19,738 nt of DNA from assembly GCA_017860985.1 (NCBI GenBank), contig JAGFXG010000002.1, forward strand, positions 1-19,738. Reading direction: 5' to 3'. Of this stretch, positions 2,976-10,608 are shown one piece after another. The number at the start of each line of letters is the position of its first letter. The stretch's first letter is position 1. The notes beneath the pieces were generated by a model. That model was not told where the DNA came from. It worked only from the letters and a program-made list of their open reading frames with translations, and did not search any database. A program made the translations under genes and the position numbers. Source of the stretch: Deltaproteobacteria bacterium (GTDB lineage: Bacteria; Desulfobacterota; Syntrophia; Syntrophales; Smithellaceae).

Positions 2976-4637
2976 TTAATCTTTAAACACTGCTCCTGTT
3001 GAAGCCGATGTAACCATTTTTGCATAGCGGGCCAGATAACCTGTCGTGATGACGGGAGTCCAGGATTTAAGCGATTTACGGCGCTTCTCCAGCTCCGCAT
3101 CATCAACCTTCAGTGTCAATTTCTTGGCCGGAATGTCGATGGCAATGATGTCGCCTTCCTTCACAAGCGCGATGGGCCCGCCTTCCGCAGCTTCCGGTGA
3201 GATATGTCCGATGGCCGCGCCCTGTGTACCGCCACTGAAACGTCCGTCGGTCAGAAGCGCCACGGATTTATCAAGCCCCATCCCGACAATGGCGGAAGTC
3301 GGAGAAAGCATCTCGCGCATGCCCGGACCGCCCTTCGGGCCTTCATAACGAATGACCACAATATCTCCCGGCTTTATTTTCCCTCCCATGATTGCGGCAA
3401 TGGCTTTGTCTTCCGAATCAAACACACGGGCCCTGCCTTCGTTGACCTGCATGGCCGGTGCCACGGCGGATTGCTTGACCACCGCGCCGTCCGGAGCCAG
3501 ATTGCCTCGCAAAACAGCAATGCCACCCTGTTTGGAGTACGGGTTGTCAAGCGGACGGATAACGTCCTCGTTCAACACGCGGGCGGTTTTCAAATTAGCC
3601 CCCGTGGACTTGCCGGTGACCGTCATGGCCTTTTCATCAATGACGCCAAGCTTGCTGATCACTTTCATGACCGCCTGGATGCCGCCTGCCGCATCCAGAT
3701 CCTCGATGTGGTGAGGCCCTGCGGGGCTGAGCTTGCACAGATTAGGCGTTTTCTCGCTGATTTTGTTAAACAGGTCCAAATCCAGTTTTATACCGGCCTC
3801 ATGGGCAATGGCCGGAATGTGCAGGACCGTATTTGTGGAGCAGCCCAGTGCCATATCGACAGCCATGGCGTTTTTGAAGGCGGCCAGTGTAGCAATATCA
3901 CGCGGCTTCACGTTTTTCTTAAGCAGGTCCATAATTTTCATGCCCGCCTGTTTCGCCAGACGATGCCGAGCGGCAAGAACCGCGGGTATTGTACCGTGTC
4001 CGGGCAACCCCAGACCAAGCGCTTCGGTCACGCAGTTCATGGAATTGGCCGTGTACATGCCGGAGCAGGACCCGCAGCCGGGACAGGCACAGTCTTCCAG
4101 TTGCTGCAATTCGGAGAGCGCCATTTTTTTGGCTTTCACCGCGCCAACCCCTTCAAATACCGAGATGAGGTCTACAGCTTTGCCCTGAAGTCTCCCCGCC
4201 AGCATCGGCCCGCCGCTGATGAAAATGGACGGAATATTGAGCCTGAGCGCCGCCATCAACATGCCGGGAATAATCTTGTCGCAGTTGGGAATGAACACCA
4301 GCGCGTCAAAAGGATGGGCGGTCGCCATGATTTCAATGGAATCGGCAATCAGCTCGCGGCTGGCCAGAGAATATTTCATGCCCGCATGATTCATCGCAAT
4401 ACCGTCACACACACCAATGACCGGAAATTCCACGGGCGTCCCTCCGGCCATCCGTATCCCCGCTTTTACATCATTAGTAATCAAGTCCAGATGGATATGC
4501 CCCGGGATAATTTCGTTGGCGGAATTCACCACGCCAATGAGCGGACGTGCAATTTCTTCATCGGTGTAACCCATCGCTTTGAAGAGGGATCGGTGCGGTG
4601 CGCGCTCCAGTCCCTTTTTCATGAGATCACTTCTCAT
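2976..4637 (-). CDS. ilvD: Dihydroxy-acid dehydratase
   Basis: Dehydrates 2,3-dihydroxy-isovalerate and 2,3-dihydroxy-3-methylvalerate to the 2-oxo acids, the third shared step of valine and isoleucine (and leucine precursor) synthesis. It is a cytosolic Fe-S, Mg-dependent enzyme. Family signatures are [14 protein letters not shown] (Cys77, Asp78), [13 protein letters not shown] (Cys119, cluster ligand), [26 protein letters not shown] (Cys191, cluster ligand) and near the C-terminus [22 protein letters not shown]. The 553-residue length is typical. On the minus strand GAGGGAG precedes the ATG with 6-8 nt spacing. It is the last gene of the ilv operon, separated from ilvC by a 143-bp inverted-repeat element. 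A long open frame on the opposite strand is a shadow of this GC-rich gene. Confidence 0.97.
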
Positions 4638-4814: not shown

Positions 4815-5870
4815 CTATTTTTTTCGCTTTTCCGGTCTCAGTCCCCTCACAGCCGCACCGGCCTGCCACATTTCGGAGTCGCGCATTTCCTTAAGCTCGG
4901 CGTTCAATTTTTCCTTGTAATCCGGTGCGCTGTTAACCCTTAGAACCACTTCGGTTTCCTTTCCGGTTGCGACGGAGTTATAAAGTTCGGCAAAAACCGG
5001 TTCGACTGCTTTACGGAATTTGTGGCGCCAGTCGAGCGCGCCTCGCTGTGCTGTAGCAGAGCAATTGGCATACATCCAGTCCATGCCGTTTTCACCGACG
5101 AGGCGAATCAGGCTCTGGGTTAATTCCTCAACCGTTTCATTGAAGGCTTCACTCGGGGTATGACCGTGCTTGCGAAGTTCGGCGTATTGTGCTTCCATCA
5201 TGCCCGCAAGCGCACCCATCAGCACACCGCGTTCGCCGGTCAGATCGCTGAAGACCTCCATCTGGAAGGTTGTCGGGAAAAGAAATCCTGATCCGATGGC
5301 AATACCCAACGCCAGGGTGCGTTCCATCGCACGGCCAGTTGCATCCTGATGAACGGCAAAGCTTGAATTGATACCGCTGCCGTCAACAAAATTGCGGCGG
5401 ACGCTCGTGCCTGATCCCTTGGGTGCGACCATAATCACATCGACAAAGTCAGGCGGAATAACGCCGGTCTGTTCTTTGTAAACGATGGAAAAACCGTGTG
5501 AGAAGTAGAGCGCGTCGCCCTTTTTCAGGTGGGCCTTGACTTTCGGCCACAAAATCATCTGCGCCGCATCGGATACCAGGTACTGAATGATGGTCGCTTT
5601 CTCCACTGCTTCTTCAATCGGGAAAAGGGTCTCGCCGGGAACCCATCCGTCGGAAATGGCTTTTTCCCAGTATTGCTTGTCTTCCGGAGACTGCCCGATG
5701 ATCACATTGACACCGTTGTCTTTCATATTGAAAGCCTGTGCAGGCCCCTGAACACCGTAACCCAGCACTGCGATCACTTCATTTTTAAGAACTTCCTGTG
5801 CTTTTTTGACCGTAAATTCTTCTGCGGTCACCACATCTTCGATCGTACCACCAAAATTGATTTTTGCCAT
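4815..5870 (-). CDS. ilvC: Ketol-acid reductoisomerase, class I, Bacteroidetes/fungal-like branch
   Basis: Catalyses the Mg-dependent alkyl migration and NAD(P)H reduction of acetolactate or acetohydroxybutyrate. Residues 37-42 (GYGVQG) are the dinucleotide loop, SHGFSIVY holds the conserved His125, and SDLTGERG supplies the metal-binding Asp209 and Glu213. Length is 351 residues. Segments such as VAPKGSGTSVRRNF, GINSSFAVHQDATG, SPSEAFNETVEELTQSL-like text and a C-terminus ending RGLRPEKRKK match the yeast Ilv5/Bacteroidetes type as I remember it, rather than the common bacterial type of about 330-340 residues. The cofactor loop after beta-2 reads GQSPEDKQYW: no Arg/Lys at its start and two acidic residues. 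A strong Shine-Dalgarno AGGAGG precedes the ATG. It follows ilvN by 51 bp in the operon. Confidence 0.96.
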   Translation of the reverse strand: MAKINFGGTIEDVVTAEEFTVKKAQEVLKNEVIAVLGYGVQGPAQAFNMKDNGVNVIIGQSPEDKQYWEKAISDGWVPGETLFPIEEAVEKATIIQYLVSDAAQMILWPKVKAHLKKGDALYFSHGFSIVYKEQTGVIPPDFVDVIMVAPKGSGTSVRRNFVDGSGINSSFAVHQDATGRAMERTLALGIAIGSGFLFPTTFQMEVFSDLTGERGVLMGALAGMMEAQYAELRKHGHTPSEAFNETVEELTQSLIRLVGENGMDWMYANCSATAQRGALDWRHKFRKAVEPVFAELYNSVATGKETEVVLRVNSAPDYKEKLNAELKEMRDSEMWQAGAAVRGLRPEKRKK

Positions 5871-5921: not shown

Positions 5922-6407
5922 TTAATCTTCCAGCGTCAGCGCGACCAGGCCTGTCCTGGTTATGTCCGTAATTCCCAGCGGTTCCAGACGCGCCAGCGAA
6001 AAATCAACTTGCCTTTTGTCCCCCGTGATTTCAATAATAACGTATGTATCGCCTGAAACTATTACTTTCCATTTATTCATGTCAACAGCGTTCTTTACCG
6101 CTTCTGAATTCTCGGCCGTCAGATTCAGCCTCACCAGAACCATTTCGCGATGGATGGACTCAACATTGGTCAGATCATCGACGGAAATCACATCAACCAG
6201 CCTTTGCAGTTGATTCTCGATTCGAGTGATCGTTGACTGAGAACCCGAGGTGGTCATCACAATTTTCGATATGTCGTTTTGCGTAGTCGTGTTCACGCAA
6301 AGGCTGTCAATGTTATAGCCTTTGCCTCCCAGTGTTCCGGCAACTCTCGCCAGAACGTCCGGTTTGTTATGTACCAGAATTGAAATAATATGATCCTTTT
6401 TCTCCAT
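5922..6407 (-). CDS. ilvN: Acetolactate synthase small (regulatory) subunit
   Basis: Regulatory partner of IlvB that confers valine feedback inhibition and raises catalytic activity. The N-terminal ACT domain (about residues 4-75) shows ISILVHNKPDVLARVAGTLGGKGYNIDSLCV, with the Gly-rich effector loop, then DISKIVMTTSG and LQRLVDVISVDDLT. The C-terminal half (REMVLVRLNL..., VIIEITGDKRQVDFSLARLEP) is the second ACT-like domain. With the ATG at 6407 the protein has 161 residues, standard for the long IlvN/IlvH form. A GTG at 6422 is in frame, but AGGTGAGG lies just ahead of 6407 (9 nt) and overlaps the GTG, so the ATG is preferred. It sits 56 bp downstream of ilvB and both are surely cotranscribed. 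Confidence 0.95.
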   Translation of the reverse strand: MEKKDHIISILVHNKPDVLARVAGTLGGKGYNIDSLCVNTTTQNDISKIVMTTSGSQSTITRIENQLQRLVDVISVDDLTNVESIHREMVLVRLNLTAENSEAVKNAVDMNKWKVIVSGDTYVIIEITGDKRQVDFSLARLEPLGITDITRTGLVALTLED

Positions 6408-6433
6408 GCTATATAACCTCACCTTTATTTTTT

Positions 6434-6463: not shown

Positions 6464-8167
6464 CTAATTAATCATTTCTCTTGATCCCAGGGTCATTTGC
6501 GTGATCGACCCTCCCGGATGCACCATGGGATACACACATTCCTCTCTGGATATACGGAAATCCATCAACACGGGTTTATCGGCAGCCAGTCCCTGCTCCA
6601 AAACGGTTTCCACTTCGGCGGGTTTGGTCGCACGCAGACCAATGACGCCAAAAGCTTCCGCAAGCTTTACAAAATCAGGCGCGTACGTCATGTCCGTGTG
6701 AGAATATCGCTTATTGTAAAACATTTCCTGCCACTGGCGCGGCATGCCTAAGAATTCATTGTTTAATAAAACCACTTTCACGGCGATGTTATACTGGGCG
6801 GCAGTTGCAAGTTCCTGAATGTTCATCTGGATGCTTCCGTCACCGGCAATCGCCACAACCTGCCTGTCCGGAAAAGCGCATTTGACGCCAATGGCGGCGG
6901 GCAGGCCAAATCCCATCGTGCCCAATCCGCCGGATGAAACAAACGTATTGGGCCGGTCAAAATTGAAAAACTGCGCCGTCCACATCTGATGCTGACCGAC
7001 ATCCGTCGTTATCAGCACATCGCCCTTGGTAAGCTTTTGCAATTTTTCAATCACGTACTGCGGTTTAATGACTTCGCCGTTCTGGCAGTAGCTCAACGGC
7101 ACTTTTTCCCGCCATTCGGCAAGCTCACGAAGCCATTCGGCTCTTGAGCCGGCATCCTGCGTGTAGTGATGTTCTTCCAGAAAACGCAGGATATCCTTCA
7201 GTGTGGCCTTGGTGTCGCCGATAATCGGCAGGTCAATGGTTACATTTTTATTGATGGAGGAAGGATCAATGTCAATATGGACAATCTTTGCGTTGGAGGC
7301 AAACGTTTCAATCGAGCCGGTCACGCGATCGTCGAAGCGCACTCCCACGGCCAGCATAAAATCGCAGTGGCTGACGGCCATGTTCGCGTAATAGGTGCCG
7401 TGCATCCCCAGCATCCCCAGCCAAAGGGGATCAGTGCCCGGAAACGATCCGAGCCCCATCAGGGTCCCCGTAACGGGAATCTCGTATTTACGGGCCAGAA
7501 GGGTTAATTCGTCAGAAGCTTTACCGAGAATCACGCCTCCTCCGGTCATGATCAGGGGCTTTTTCGCGGCATTGAGCATATCTAATACATTAGCCATTTT
7601 TTTCGGCGCCGGTTTGTATATCGCTTCTTGATTGCGAATTTTTACGTTTGCCGGATCATAATCATATTGCGCGGCCATGACATTTTTCGGCAGATCCACG
7701 AGAACCGGCCCCGGTCGTCCGGAACGGGCGATGTGAAACGCTTCCTTGATTGTTGAAGCCAGTTCCTCAATGTTGCGCACCAGGAAATTGTGCTTGGTGC
7801 AGGGCCGGGTGATGCCGGTAATGTCGCACTCCTGAAATGCATCATTGCCGATAAGCCCCGTCGGAACCTGTCCGGTAAATACCACCAGGGGGATGGAGTC
7901 CATATTTGCCGTGGCAATGCCGGTAACGGTATTGGTGGCGCCGGGGCCGGACGTTACCAAGCAAACGCCAACTTTTCCCGTCGCGCGCGCGTAACCATCG
8001 GCGGCATGCACTGCGCCCTGTTCGTGGCGGACCAGAATGTGCCTGAGATTGCTTTGATAAAGCTGATCATAGAGATCCAGGACAGCCCCTCCCGGGTAGC
8101 CAAAAATAATGTCAACTTTTTCTTCTTCGAGCGCTTTCAGAAAAATTTCTGTGCCTTTCAACTTCAT
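6464..8167 (-). CDS. ilvB: Acetolactate synthase large (catalytic) subunit
   Basis: Thiamine-diphosphate enzyme that condenses two pyruvates, or pyruvate and 2-oxobutyrate, in the first common step of branched-chain amino acid synthesis. The N-terminal TPP-binding domain has FGYPGGAVLDLYD and the catalytic Glu49 in RHEQGAVHAADGYAR. The central domain carries FAD-binding family text (GVRFDDRVTG). The C-terminal domain has the TPP/Mg motif GDGS (442-445) through NN (469-470) and LGMPRQWQ, where most homologues read LGMVRQWQ. Its 567 residues are typical. On the minus strand GGAGGAG (8183-8177) lies 9 nt before the ATG. It is the first structural gene of the operon and is preceded by a leader peptide and attenuator. 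Confidence 0.97.
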   Translation of the reverse strand: MKLKGTEIFLKALEEEKVDIIFGYPGGAVLDLYDQLYQSNLRHILVRHEQGAVHAADGYARATGKVGVCLVTSGPGATNTVTGIATANMDSIPLVVFTGQVPTGLIGNDAFQECDITGITRPCTKHNFLVRNIEELASTIKEAFHIARSGRPGPVLVDLPKNVMAAQYDYDPANVKIRNQEAIYKPAPKKMANVLDMLNAAKKPLIMTGGGVILGKASDELTLLARKYEIPVTGTLMGLGSFPGTDPLWLGMLGMHGTYYANMAVSHCDFMLAVGVRFDDRVTGSIETFASNAKIVHIDIDPSSINKNVTIDLPIIGDTKATLKDILRFLEEHHYTQDAGSRAEWLRELAEWREKVPLSYCQNGEVIKPQYVIEKLQKLTKGDVLITTDVGQHQMWTAQFFNFDRPNTFVSSGGLGTMGFGLPAAIGVKCAFPDRQVVAIAGDGSIQMNIQELATAAQYNIAVKVVLLNNEFLGMPRQWQEMFYNKRYSHTDMTYAPDFVKLAEAFGVIGLRATKPAEVETVLEQGLAADKPVLMDFRISREECVYPMVHPGGSITQMTLGSREMIN

Positions 8168-8195
8168 GTTTTATGACTCCTCCATTACCTTTGAT

Positions 8196-8265
8196 CCCGC
8201 TTCTGCGGGGCGAACGTTAATTCTCCGCAGCTTGCCGCGCTATAATAACGTTCATTTCATGCCCC
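8196..8265 (-). promoter_or_regulatory. Structured segment with mutually exclusive hairpins just upstream of ilvB
   Basis: Between the attenuator terminator and the ilvB ribosome site the transcript contains GGGGC (8265-8261) and GAACGTTA (8253-8246), which can pair with TAACGTTC (8219-8212) and GCCCC (8211-8207). This makes an 8+5 bp stem with a 7-nt bulge and an inner GC-rich arm. The GCCCC arm overlaps a second hairpin, CCCGC-AGAA-GCGGG (8209-8196), so the two folds exclude each other. The region has no credible ORF. It could be a second RNA switch, a processed or stabilising structure, or the remnant of a GC-rich repeat. I see no T-box consensus. Confidence 0.35.
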
Positions 8266-8309
8266 GATAGCTCACTTCGAGGTGTTTCATTAATCAGCCC
8301 TGAAAACTG

Positions 8310-8345
8310 AAAAAGCCGCCAGTTTCTTTAGGAAAAAGCGGCCTT
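8310..8345 (-). terminator. Attenuator terminator of the ilv leader
   Basis: On the minus strand GCCGC (8342-8338) pairs with GCGGC (8319-8315). An inner TTTC/GAAA pairing is possible, and the stem is followed directly by TTTTT (8314-8310). It sits about 60 nt after the leader-peptide stop and about 140 nt before ilvB, the right position for an attenuator that ends transcription before the structural genes. The right arm GCGGCTT can instead pair with AAGCCGC at 8390-8384, which would break the terminator. Confidence 0.65.
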
Positions 8346-8350
8346 GACTA

Positions 8351-8394
8351 GATACAGCAAAGCCGCGGGCTTTTCGGGGCCCGCGGCTTGTATC
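8351..8394 (-). promoter_or_regulatory. Long GC-rich leader hairpin (attenuator arm) after the leader peptide
   Basis: A perfect 10-bp stem, AGCCGCGGGC (8388-8379) / GCCCGCGGCT (8370-8361), has an 8-nt loop and is extended by GATACA (8394-8389) with TGTATC (8356-8351) across a small bulge. GATACA can alternatively pair with another TGTATC at 8412-8407, inside the last codons of the leader peptide. That three-way choice is the competing-structure logic expected of a translation-sensing attenuator. It is followed by only TTT, so by itself it is a weak terminator. Confidence 0.65.
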
Positions 8395-8401
8395 TCTTTT
8401 C

Positions 8402-8506
8402 TTAAAGATACAGAGCGGCAGACCCCATGGGTACGACTACTACGACGAGTAATCTTACAATGGCCTGCTTCAAAATTCTGCCGCTGTCTAAACCTTTAAG
8501 AAACAT
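8402..8506 (-). CDS. ilv operon leader peptide (Val/Leu/Ile-rich, 34 residues)
   Basis: A short gene whose translation, not its product, matters. Its middle reads AIVRLLVVVVVPM, with five consecutive valine codons (GTC GTA GTA GTC GTA at 8446-8432) right after Leu-Leu and shortly after Ile-Val. The start is ATG at 8506, 7-8 nt after AGGGA, and the stop TAA (8404-8402) lies 7 nt before the downstream hairpin. Its own coding RNA contains AGCGGCAGA (8485-8477) and TCTGCCGCT (8422-8414), which pair perfectly around the valine run. This parallels the E. coli ilvB (ivbL) and ilvGMEDA (ilvL) leaders: scarcity of charged tRNA-Val or tRNA-Leu should stall the ribosome and allow read-through into ilvB. 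The gene is too short for most gene callers. Confidence 0.88.
   Translation of the reverse strand: MFLKGLDSGRILKQAIVRLLVVVVVPMGSAALYL
8414..8485 (-). promoter_or_regulatory. Leader 1:2 pairing around the valine codons
   Basis: AGCGGCAGA (8485-8477) and TCTGCCGCT (8422-8414) form a 9-bp perfect stem enclosing the Leu-Leu-Val5 codons. Segment 2 also contains GCCGC, complementary to the GCGGC right arms of both downstream hairpins, so a stalled ribosome covering segment 1 would free segment 2 to act as an antiterminator. The pairing is directly visible; the regulatory outcome is inferred from the classical attenuation model. Confidence 0.6.
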
Positions 8507-8531
8507 AATTAATTCCCTGTTTAATGATTGT

Positions 8532-8560
8532 TCTTTAACGAAAAAATTGTCTGTTGTCAA
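8532..8560 (-). promoter_or_regulatory. sigma70-type promoter of the ilv operon
   Basis: On the minus strand a perfect -35 TTGACA (8560-8555) is followed after exactly 17 nt by TAAAGA (8537-8532) as a weak -10. The expected start is near 8525, about 20 nt before the leader-peptide ATG, which leaves room for its AGGGA site. A strong -35 with a weak -10 suits a promoter whose main control is downstream attenuation. Confidence 0.6.
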
Positions 8561-8586
8561 GAGACATTGTTGATGGCTTTCATTTT

Positions 8587-10608
8587 TTAACGGAACAACT
8601 CCTCGGTTTCTTCCGTCAGATTATCTTCCTTTTTCTCGGGCATGGCGTTTTCCAGAAAGGTTTCATAGACCGTTCCCGAGCCTGTGCCCTGCGACGGAGC
8701 ACCGGTTTGCTGATCGACCTTGACAAAAACAACACCTTCCGGAACGGGGAATTCCTCCACCGGCTTGTCTTTCAGGACTTCTTCCATAAAATAGAGCCAG
8801 ATTGGCGCGGCCGCGCGGCCGCCCACTTCCTGTCTTCCCATGGGTCTTTCCTGATCAAAACCAACCCAGACGCCGGCAATCAAAGACGGTGTAAACCCGA
8901 TAAACCAGGCATCGCGGGTATCGTTGGTCGTGCCTGTCTTTCCGGCAACCGGTCTGCCGATACTTTTAACTCGCTGGCCCGTACCGCTTTCCACGACTTC
9001 CTGCATGACATGGGTCGTTATGAAAGCGATGCGGGGATCAATGACCTGTTCCGGCTGCACCTTCGTTTCCTCGAAAACATTGCCGGTGCGGTCAACAATT
9101 TTGCGGATAAAGTAGGGTTTGACTTTTTTCCCTGCATTTCCCAGAACAGCATAAGCGCGCACCAGTTCCTGCAGGGTAACGCCCGATGATCCCAGCGCCA
9201 GAGAATAATTCCTGACCAGCGGAGAGGTAATGCCCATATTGGCGGCGTACGACGTTGCATAATCAATGCCGATATCCTGCAGGATTTTCACTGTTACGAC
9301 ATTGCGCGATTGCACCAGGGCCTTCCGCAAGGTAATCGGTCCGAGGAACTTCCCGTCATAGTTTCTCGGTCTCCAAACACCGTCCGCCTGCGATCGATCT
9401 TCAAACATAATTGGAGAGTCAACAATCCGCGTGGAAGGAGTCATACCCTTGTCAAAAGCAGCCGTATAGATCAGCGGCTTAAAGGCTGAACCCGGTTGCC
9501 GGCGCGACTGCGTCGCGCGGTTAAATTCACTTTTTTCATAGTCGCGCCCGCCCACCATTGCGACAATGGCACCGGTTTTAATATCCATGCAGAAAATCGC
9601 TCCCTGCACAATGCCTTTCTCGTATTTTTCCCGTTCTTCCATTTCGGTCAGGCCTTTAATCAGAGCGTCCCGGGCCGCCTTCTGAGCCGACATATCAAGG
9701 GTTGTGTAAATCGACAACCCTTCTTTATAAAGAATATCCGTCCCGTATTTTTCCTGCACATAGCGACGGACCGTCTCAACAAAATGCCCGGCAACTTTGT
9801 CCTTCGGCTGGGCCCGCTTCAGTTTCAGGGGGGCGGCAACGGCCGCGTCCATTTGTTCCCTCGTAATGAAACGTTCCTCCATCATGCGGTTCAATACGTA
9901 TGTCTGCCTTTGTTTCGCGCGGTCAAAATAAAAATACGGTGAATACGTGGTGGGGGCTTTCGGCAAACCCGCAAGCATGGCCGCTTCCGGCAATGTCAGA
10001 TCCTTCGCGCTCTTGCCAAAATAGCCGATCGAAGCCGATTCTATGCCATAGGTTCCGTGTCCCATGTAAATCTGGTTAAGATACAGATAGAGAATTTCAT
10101 CTTTTGTCAGATACCGGTCAATGCGATAGGAAAGAACTGCTTCTTTGAACTTTCGAATGTACTTTCTTTCGGGCGTCAGGTACATCATTTTGGCTACCTG
10201 CTGTGTTATGGTGCTGCCGCCCTGAACAATTCTACCTGCTTCCACATTTTTGAACATGGCACGGAAGATACTGACCGGATCAAATCCCTTATGCTGATAA
10301 AAACGGGAATCCTCCGCCGCGACAAAAGCATACTTAACCATACCTGGAACTTCTGAAATTTTAATGATTTTTCTGTCTTCTAAAAAGAACTCCTCCAGAA
10401 GTTCATCGTTTGCGTCATACACACGGGAAGCAATACTCGGCCGGTAATCCTTCAATGCGTCAATCCCCGGAAGGTCCCTGGTCAACGCGTAATATGCCGT
10501 GACCCCGCTTATCGTCAGCACCAAAAGCAGCAGGAACAAAACAAATAATATTTTAAAAAGGATCCATAGCTTGCTGGATTTCTTTTTCTTTCGTTTGAGT
10601 TCAGACAT
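8587..10608 (-). CDS. mrcA: Penicillin-binding protein 1A, class A bifunctional peptidoglycan synthase
   Basis: Polymerises lipid II (glycosyltransferase GT51) and cross-links stem peptides (DD-transpeptidase) on the periplasmic face. A basic N-terminus is followed by one membrane anchor (about 14-42). The GT51 domain shows AAEDSRFYQHKGFD (catalytic Glu99) and GGSTITQQ (130-137). The transpeptidase has SxxK as Ser374-Ala-Phe-Lys377 within QPGSAFKPL, SRN at 434-436 and KTGT at 557-560. The 673 residues make it compact compared with E. coli PBP1A (about 850), so the OB/ODD insert is reduced. The tail after the transpeptidase is short and acidic. It lies 30 bp after tatC and is probably cotranscribed; no terminator is evident after its stop, so reads may run into the ilv promoter region. 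Confidence 0.95.
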   Translation of the reverse strand: MSELKRKKKKSSKLWILFKILFVLFLLLLVLTISGVTAYYALTRDLPGIDALKDYRPSIASRVYDANDELLEEFFLEDRKIIKISEVPGMVKYAFVAAEDSRFYQHKGFDPVSIFRAMFKNVEAGRIVQGGSTITQQVAKMMYLTPERKYIRKFKEAVLSYRIDRYLTKDEILYLYLNQIYMGHGTYGIESASIGYFGKSAKDLTLPEAAMLAGLPKAPTTYSPYFYFDRAKQRQTYVLNRMMEERFITREQMDAAVAAPLKLKRAQPKDKVAGHFVETVRRYVQEKYGTDILYKEGLSIYTTLDMSAQKAARDALIKGLTEMEEREKYEKGIVQGAIFCMDIKTGAIVAMVGGRDYEKSEFNRATQSRRQPGSAFKPLIYTAAFDKGMTPSTRIVDSPIMFEDRSQADGVWRPRNYDGKFLGPITLRKALVQSRNVVTVKILQDIGIDYATSYAANMGITSPLVRNYSLALGSSGVTLQELVRAYAVLGNAGKKVKPYFIRKIVDRTGNVFEETKVQPEQVIDPRIAFITTHVMQEVVESGTGQRVKSIGRPVAGKTGTTNDTRDAWFIGFTPSLIAGVWVGFDQERPMGRQEVGGRAAAPIWLYFMEEVLKDKPVEEFPVPEGVVFVKVDQQTGAPSQGTGSGTVYETFLENAMPEKKEDNLTEETEELFR

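Follow-up and report, generated by a model that had tools for sequence, protein, structure and literature searches.

A conserved valine-codon leader with two tandem terminator-like hairpins, a likely attenuator of the ilvBNCD operon in syntrophic bacteria

The ilvBNCD operon in the window analysed here, a 19,738-nt stretch that forms one contig of a 1.9-Mb draft genome (67.6% complete), is preceded by a leader that is probably a ribosome-mediated transcription attenuator sensing charged tRNA-Val, with two terminators in series. The leader ORF and its helices are conserved, the competing helices are mutually exclusive and folding predicts two states for the RNA. Ribosome-mediated attenuation was already the reading of a first-pass annotation of this DNA, and it is supported by the conserved ORF with its branched-chain codons and by mutually exclusive, covarying pairings of region 2 with region 3 (2:3, the antiterminator) and of region 3 with region 4 (3:4, the first terminator hairpin, T1).

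In the mechanism that we propose, Val-tRNA would be the signal, the operon would respond to valine, and both T1 and a second hairpin, T2 (5:6), would terminate transcription in the cell. With valine plentiful, the ribosome would reach the stop codon and cover the 3' part of region 2, whereupon region 3 would pair with region 4 (T1) and region 5 with region 6 (T2), and transcription would stop before ilvB. With valine scarce, the ribosome would stall at V21-V23, where the Val run begins; region 2 would capture region 3, and region 4, left free, would capture region 5, because the two are complementary, before region 6 is made. Both terminators would then fall like dominoes and ilvBNCD would be transcribed.

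Results

The leader and operon in the window

As first annotated, a 34-codon Leu-Leu-Val5 ORF lies between a TTGACA element and ilvB, and all of its parts were located on the minus strand, to which all features given below in the window belong. The ORF (MFLKGLDSGRILKQAIVRLLVVVVVPMGSAALYL and stop; 8402..8506) runs from an ATG at 8506 to a TAA ending at 8402, and its control codons, GTC GTA GTA GTC GTA (V21-V25; 8432..8446), are five Val codons after Leu-Leu, a run of end-product codons ahead of the biosynthetic operon. Region 1 (TTTCTTAAAG...AGCGGCAGA, codons 2-10; 8477..8503) pairs in the MFE structure with region 2 and the ORF end. The 9-bp pairing reported around the Val run is indeed perfect (AGCGGCAGA, 8485-8477, with TCTGCCGCT, 8422-8414), but its extent was understated: codons 2-5 (TTTCTTAAAG) additionally pair with CTTTAAGAAA at the ORF end, which enlarges it. 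Region 2 (GGGGTCTGCCGCTCTGTATCTTT; 8404..8426) is followed by its antiterminator partner, region 3 (AGAGATACAAGCCGCGGGCCCC; 8376..8397), which contains the T1 5' arm. The antiterminator can span GGGG (8426) to CCCC (8376), far longer than the GATACA/TGTATC pairing singled out at first. It had been suggested that GATACA (8394-8389) chooses between two TGTATC partners; both are present (8412-8407 and 8356-8351) and the upstream one holds, but the second occurs in just 3 of 45 aligned family leaders, plus one further genome by eye (G017), and was dropped as a core element.

T1 (3:4, AAGCCGCGGGC/GCCCGCGGCTT; 8360..8389) has a stem whose GGC is followed in the window by UUUGCUGU; the UUUGCUG that follows the hairpin is a poor U-tract. 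Its 3' arm, region 4 (GCGGCTTT; 8359..8366), is complementary to region 5 (AAGGCCGC; 8338..8345), the 5' arm of T2. T2 with its U5 (8310..8345) is the GCCGC/GCGGC hairpin said to end the leader, and was found as such at 8345-8312, with the U5 at 8314-8310. The 239-nt leader has a folding energy of -89.9 kcal/mol (z = -6.0), a value equalled by none of 200 shuffles. A promoter/terminator consensus scan missed both T1 and T2 on the minus strand, because few T follow T1 and the T2 loop is above the limit of the scan; the T1 palindrome was called on the plus strand only. Rfam (release 15) gave no match at gathering score in the whole window, and the seven matches within 8150-8600, at E 0.11 or worse and all far under gathering, are at chance level.

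Upstream of the ORF lies a putative promoter, TTGACA-N17-TAAAGA (8532..8560). The TTGACA of the first-pass annotation is present (8560-8555), and TTGACA is also found upstream of most family leaders, but the -10 element (TAAAGA) is weak and the promoter consensus scan was negative. The identities of the four downstream genes are upheld by NCBIfam: ilvB, the acetolactate synthase large subunit (6464..8167; TIGR00118, E 3.8e-251), ilvN, the small subunit (5922..6422; TIGR00119), ilvC, ketol-acid reductoisomerase (4815..5870; TIGR00465), and ilvD, dihydroxy-acid dehydratase (2976..4637; TIGR00110).

Between T2 and ilvB, outside the attenuator, lies one copy of a dispersed repeat of ~104 nt (8190..8294) with three small hairpins; two genomes (G014 and G016) are without the repeat at the ilvB site. 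Its 43-base core (at most 3 mismatches) occurs in 7 copies in the analysed part of the window's draft genome and 16 in G016, and in 17 of 49 genomes, with 0 for a reversed-pattern control. The distance from leader to ilvB in the family ranges from 126 to over 350 nt, and by eye several family loci seem to carry other repeat-like insertions just past T2.

Conservation of the leader upstream of ilvB

The window's genome has one close named relative, Syntrophaceae bacterium bog_1110, at 84% IlvB identity, and belongs to a Syntrophaceae-like family of the order Syntrophales. The first-pass annotation had named homologous operons without a leader or conserved stems as what would speak against it; the leader is instead kept in 48 of the 49 family genomes (51 searched) that have an ilvB match, and a branched-chain-rich leader is found at 54 of 60 ilvB loci fetched from other families of the order. 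The 48 comprise the 45 of the folding set, L123, L132 (at a contig end) and that of G047, which is counted by DNA and model match only, its start codon being unread. In the exception, the near-identical genome G017 (L002, G017:C262), IlvB is 99% identical and 54 bases with the ORF start and region 1 are missing, which may be a natural variant or, since G017 is a draft, a fault of assembly. Folded to the end of T1, the G017 leader has 2:3 as its best structure; folded to the end of T2, T1 returns.

The 54 other-family leaders consist of 18 of form A, the two-terminator leader, 34 of form B, a related one-terminator version that is mostly isoleucine-rich, L159, and L179, the last of these assigned by eye. 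Six loci were without a leader at first reading: L134 and L176, both contig ends, L165, L168, L180 and L183. A later model scan found a form A leader at L165 (G076), with which the count would become 55 of 60, and at L168 (G084) ilvN and ilvB2 precede ilvB with the leader in front of them (leader, ilvB2, ilvN, ilvB1). Two further loci, L114 and L125, have no full leader in the stretch read; in the genomes concerned (G047 and G041) it lies farther upstream or on a different contig. A short ORF rich in Val, Leu and Ile with a score of at least 7 of 8 is present at 38 of 50 family loci (1.4% of shuffles) and at 30 of 58 loci elsewhere in the order (0.7% of shuffles); at a looser score of at least 6 these become 47 of 50 and 49 of 58, with 12% and 8% of shuffles. 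Outside the order, a branched-chain-rich ORF (score at least 6) was seen at 8 of 78 ilvB loci, near the 8-12% for shuffles of other loci, and none was convincing by eye. That sample was drawn from 80 named loci, two of which were dropped for having less than 150 nt upstream, and includes one family locus (L033, the same as L115) whose leader was missed at the 450-nt cut.

The gene upstream of the leader, an NCBIfam PBP1A-family protein, is co-oriented and ends at 8587, and some terminator would be expected there. That the hairpins simply terminate this gene and the ORF arose by chance is an explanation to which we give almost no credence, as it is contradicted by the order-wide conservation and the shuffle controls.

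R1, a covariance model built from the form A leaders, matches 144 of the 155 genomes of the class, all in the same order; 127 of the matches, by hand count, have an E of 2.6e-15 or better, and 63 are training genomes. All 20 matches that were read in other-family genomes (L250-L269) contain a branched-chain-rich leader ORF. In 14 genomes (G053, G064, G065, G067, G080, G081, G101, G102, G110, G116, G121, G122, G126 and G130) the match lies directly before an IlvB of 45-48% identity. Two IlvB matches are found in 13 genomes (families f4, f6, f13, f15, f16 and f18), and in 11 of these the second IlvB directly follows a Val-type two-terminator leader; the first IlvB of those 11 has an Ile-rich one-terminator leader in nine (none was found in G121, and G116 was not fetched). 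We had considered a switch from Val to Ile at a single ilvB; the two IlvB matches with different leaders point instead to two AHAS operons.

Reading frame, helices and covariation

Of the 45 family leaders, 42 preserve the phase of the distance from the ATG to region 2 (GGGG). In the other three (L122, L124 and L127) the frame shifts after the Val run, GSAALYL becoming GLPL..., yet GGGGTCTGCCGCT within region 2 is retained unchanged. With phase kept to the Val run and RNA kept past the frame change, the constraint is on the reading frame through the Val run and on the RNA beyond it.

Aligned across related genomes, as the first-pass annotation proposed, the leader ORF is conserved and the mutually exclusive helices 2:3 and 3:4 covary, weakly so in other-family form A. 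In the family (45 leaders), pairing holds in 87.6% of cells for 1:2 and 95.8% for 2:3, both with covariation scores that none of 500 shuffles reaches, and in 92.3% for 3:4, with a weak score that 6 of 500 shuffles reach; related sequences can beat shuffles without structure, a caveat on all such comparisons. Measures based on numbers of pairs or of pair types show no excess over shuffles, either in the family, where 56, 228 and 418 of 500 shuffles reach the values for 1:2, 2:3 and 3:4, or in form B, where 177 and 64 of 500 do. In the 18 other-family form A leaders 2:3 is paired in 83.6% of cells, with a weak score that 22 of 500 shuffles reach and two slid versions exceed.

The competing helices covary most clearly in form B, which has a single terminator (AACCGUUACCAG/CUGGUAACGGUU) and, as a rule, a stop UGA within region 2. 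Cells changed on both sides number 15 for 2:3 and 24 for 3:4 (33 distinct rows), and none of 500 shuffles is as high. At a key pair, the 34 leaders have T-A in 22, C-G in 7 and T-G in 5, and never C-A; in the seven C-G leaders, read by eye, the usual stop is lost through the T-to-C change and a later one ends the ORF.

Helix 1:2 is conserved and covaries, but region 1 stops 10 codons short of the first Val in the run, upstream of and outside the footprint of the stalled ribosome, so that its masking would need a following ribosome. Folding places a hairpin of at least 6 pairs after the ORF in 99 of 100 leaders (L132 is too short); in L014, L020 and L137 folding after the ORF gives 4:5 first.

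Proposed coupling of the two terminators

In form A leaders the T1 3' arm (GCGGCUUU) can pair with the T2 5' arm (AAAGCCGC). Within the family, 99.2% of the cells of this 4:5 helix are paired, and in other-family form A leaders 98.1%; 4:5 and 5:6 alike are nearly invariant, with no covariation of their own. Covariation is silent on 4:5 because its columns hardly vary, and since T1 and T2 share a seed the complementarity of 4 and 5 follows regardless. The mean duplex energies are matched, at -20.8 kcal/mol for both 2:3 and 3:4 and at -14.6 and -14.3 kcal/mol for 4:5 and 5:6. We count in favour of the model that AAGCCGC/GCGGCTT hairpins occur at three places in the window's draft genome, T1 among them.

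Folding was simulated with the ribosome at different positions on 63 form A leaders (45 family and 18 other-family). With the ribosome at the stop codon, T1 forms in 63 of 63 and T2 in 62. Before region 6 emerges, 4:5 forms in 62 of 63 leaders with a stalled ribosome as against 3 of 63 with the ribosome at the stop, by a strict measure of 4:5; a looser count, of any partner downstream of the T1 5' arm, gave 23 of 63 at the stop. When the stretch of spacer and region 5 is shuffled, 4:5 forms in 31 of 315 stalled cases. With region 6 present and equilibrium assumed, the stalled leaders form 4:5 in only 20 of 63 and T2 in 39; since 4:5 is mostly lost at full equilibrium, the domino model relies on folding in the order of synthesis.

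The first step depends on where the ribosome stands. At the chosen stall codon 2:3 reaches 0.5 in 39 of 63 leaders and T1 in 23; 2:3 beats 3:4 at one or more stall positions in 54 of 63 and at every position in 22. In the window, a stalled ribosome gives 0.86 for 2:3, 0.00 for T1, 0.98 for 4:5 and 0.01 for T2, and a ribosome at the stop gives a final 1.00 for both T1 and T2, with 4:5 at 0.30 before region 6 is out. Simulated stalls at V21-V23 free region 2, V24 hinges on the edge of the footprint and V25 fails.

A strict finder of tandem hairpins detects both in 36 of the 63 form A ilv leaders, a number held down because the finder misses many T2, and strong 4:5 in 24; among form B leaders it detects tandem hairpins in 2 of 34 and strong 4:5 in none.

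These results can also be read as an attenuator of the classical type, with regions 1-4 and a single terminator, in which T2 would be a duplicate of T1 serving as redundant or partial back-up and 4:5 a by-product; we consider this reading rather unlikely. It is in keeping with the lack of covariation specific to 4:5, with the likeness of the arms that a seed common to both hairpins brings, with the single terminator of the 34 form B leaders and of the Leu leader L306, and with T2 mostly beating 4:5 at equilibrium. We would argue against it that a strong and unregulated T2 would keep the operon off after antitermination at T1. Coupling of the two terminators, a plausible variant on known attenuation in which 4:5 would operate, is the reading that we prefer.

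Leaders of tryptophan, aromatic and leucine operons

Weaker R1 matches in the window's genus are Trp leaders, and in the window's genome one such match (G000:C151:4374-4505) encodes a Trp leader peptide, MKNIAVKLNLNNWWWWNLTGRIFRR, with tandem hairpins. The gene after the Trp leaders, where tested, is anthranilate synthase component I (L271, partial, and L298). Because R1 models two hairpins and its hits are therefore biased, trpE loci were picked by gene instead. A protein search found trpE in 78 of 110 genomes, and upstream DNA was taken from a hand-chosen 40 (L318-L357), representing 32 genera with 10 loci in the window's family; three of the genomes (G013, G108 and G114) are also R1 matches. 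A Trp-rich leader ORF, mostly with WWW or WWWW, is present at 39 of the 40 loci, the other being a 93-base contig end, and 37 of the 39 leaders have tandem terminator-like hairpins. E(4:5) is -10 or lower in 36 of these 37 as against 10.7% when arms are shuffled. With a stalled ribosome 28 of the 37 form 4:5, and with the ribosome at the stop codon 4 do. On shuffled downstream DNA the same finder gave tandem hairpins in 15 of 390 cases and such 4:5 pairing in none.

The seed shared by the two hairpins differs between leader classes, being GCCGC in ilv leaders and mostly GCCGTG in trp leaders, and is common to both hairpins within each class, which argues against T2 as a mere back-up. The finder passes 23 of 63 ilv leaders and 32 of 40 trp leaders. 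Among these, arms swapped between ilv and trp still pair, with means of -14.5 and -11.4 versus -15.9 and -16.0 for their own arms, which weighs against the coupling model; G-U pairs bridge the two seeds. Other terminator-like hairpins, a set of only 21 that includes leader pieces, give -5 to -8 and seldom match, with -13 or lower in 6-14%, which likewise tells against a one-terminator reading.

A scan of the phylum with R1 matched 49 of 198 genomes, 44 of them outside the order and all of those weaker (best 2.5e-11). By eye and with no control, an ORF with many Trp, Tyr/Phe, Leu or branched-chain codons was read at each of the best 15 outside-order loci. Two hairpins are found in 13 of the 15 (the exceptions are L244 and L247), and in all 13 E(4:5) is -10 or lower as against 28% when arms are shuffled; 4:5 formed in 12 stalled, and also in 4 at the stop. 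Ten of the 15 downstream proteins were compared with NCBIfam, and their best matches are to acetolactate synthase (one protein), ADH synthase and DAHP synthase (two each), anthranilate synthase (three, of which two are truncated), a TrpB-like protein and 2-isopropylmalate synthase. In relatives, tryptophan and tyrosine/phenylalanine operons seem to share this wiring.

Two smaller groups of leaders were also seen. L296, L280 and L282 encode leader peptides rich in Phe (FFSFFGFF and similar) and have tandem hairpins. Downstream of L296 lies a gene for a periplasmic binding protein (PF13458), a hint of a transporter for aromatic amino acids. L306, L307 and L244 encode Leu-rich leader peptides with one hairpin seen, and 2-isopropylmalate synthase lies downstream of L306 and L244.

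The leaders of these several operons bear on whether the ORF needs to be translated at all. A leader conserved as a riboswitch or a protein-bound terminator would account for the strong conservation of structure and for the folding of the whole untranslated leader into T1 in 54 of 63 cases. We find this very improbable, as the control codons suit the gene identified downstream (ilvB, trpE, leuA or aromatic-pathway genes), the ORF stays in phase up to region 2 and no Rfam family matches. The fit of codons to gene is not universal: what follows the Phe-rich leader L296 is the gene of a binding protein without an assigned substrate.

Discussion

We lean, by a modest degree, towards the view that an attenuator of six regions, where a single stalled ribosome disarms two serial terminators because the 3' arm of the first doubles as antiterminator of the second, is a common design of amino-acid operons in the phylum, giving tighter shut-off and a steeper response than a four-region attenuator. 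As part of the same claim, the design would cover Val (ilvB), Trp (trpE, trpB-like and DAHP synthase) and Tyr/Phe (DAHP and ADH synthase).

The ilvB (ivbL) and ilvGMEDA leaders of E. coli encode Val/Leu- or Ile-rich peptides and form competing antiterminators and terminators before the AHAS genes. The leader described here resembles them in having a branched-chain leader peptide and an antiterminator and terminator ahead of AHAS genes. It differs from them in that region 1 lies at the ORF start, upstream of the Val run, and in having a second terminator with arms common to the first. The earlier remark that two stacked hairpins with shared arms are not simply the enterobacterial layout is borne out, as T1 and T2 look like coupled terminators.

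Among other systems, the ilvB-II motif of Corynebacterium has, in the portion of the source available, a uORF with branched-chain codons whose peptides are usually of 15-17 residues (PMC10272879), and the Corynebacterium ilvBNC attenuator, according to the sections available, has three hairpins including an anti-antiterminator (PMC11857589). Both share with our leader a branched-chain uORF, an antiterminator and a terminator; unlike it, the Corynebacterium attenuator is described in those portions with one terminator, and no Rfam sequence match links the two here. The ilvB-OMG and Leptospira ilvB motifs, for which the same partial source gives branched-chain-rich uORFs and suspected attenuation (PMC10272879), are similar in their uORFs; this comparison is by description, no Rfam family having matched here. 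The Salmonella mgtCBR leader, as outlined in the part of its report available, contains two attenuators that use two ORFs and respond to two signals (PMC3641672); it is like ours in having two attenuators per leader and unlike it in that we propose one ORF and two coupled terminators. The rimP-leader, in the excerpted account, has a second terminator in tandem and a possible antiterminator (PMC2965389), and unlike our leader it is described there without a control-codon peptide and with its extra terminator lying upstream. The terms ilvB, Geobacter, Syntroph and Deltaproteobacteria are absent from the main text of that paper (PMC2965389).

Attenuation is a known kind of control, of which this leader is probably a new member, with a plausible coupling of its two terminators. 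Among the listed results of full-text literature searches, covering titles and the starts of abstracts and few subscription papers, neither this leader nor a second terminator coupled to a first was described. The leader would extend attenuation, with an additional step, to a group of syntrophic bacteria. It points to a cascade in RNA that passes a single decision on to a second terminator, and the coupling would explain why two GC-rich hairpins share their arms and predicts which Val codons matter. The Val, Ile, Trp and Tyr/Phe leaders, with one terminator or two, offer natural variants for comparison.
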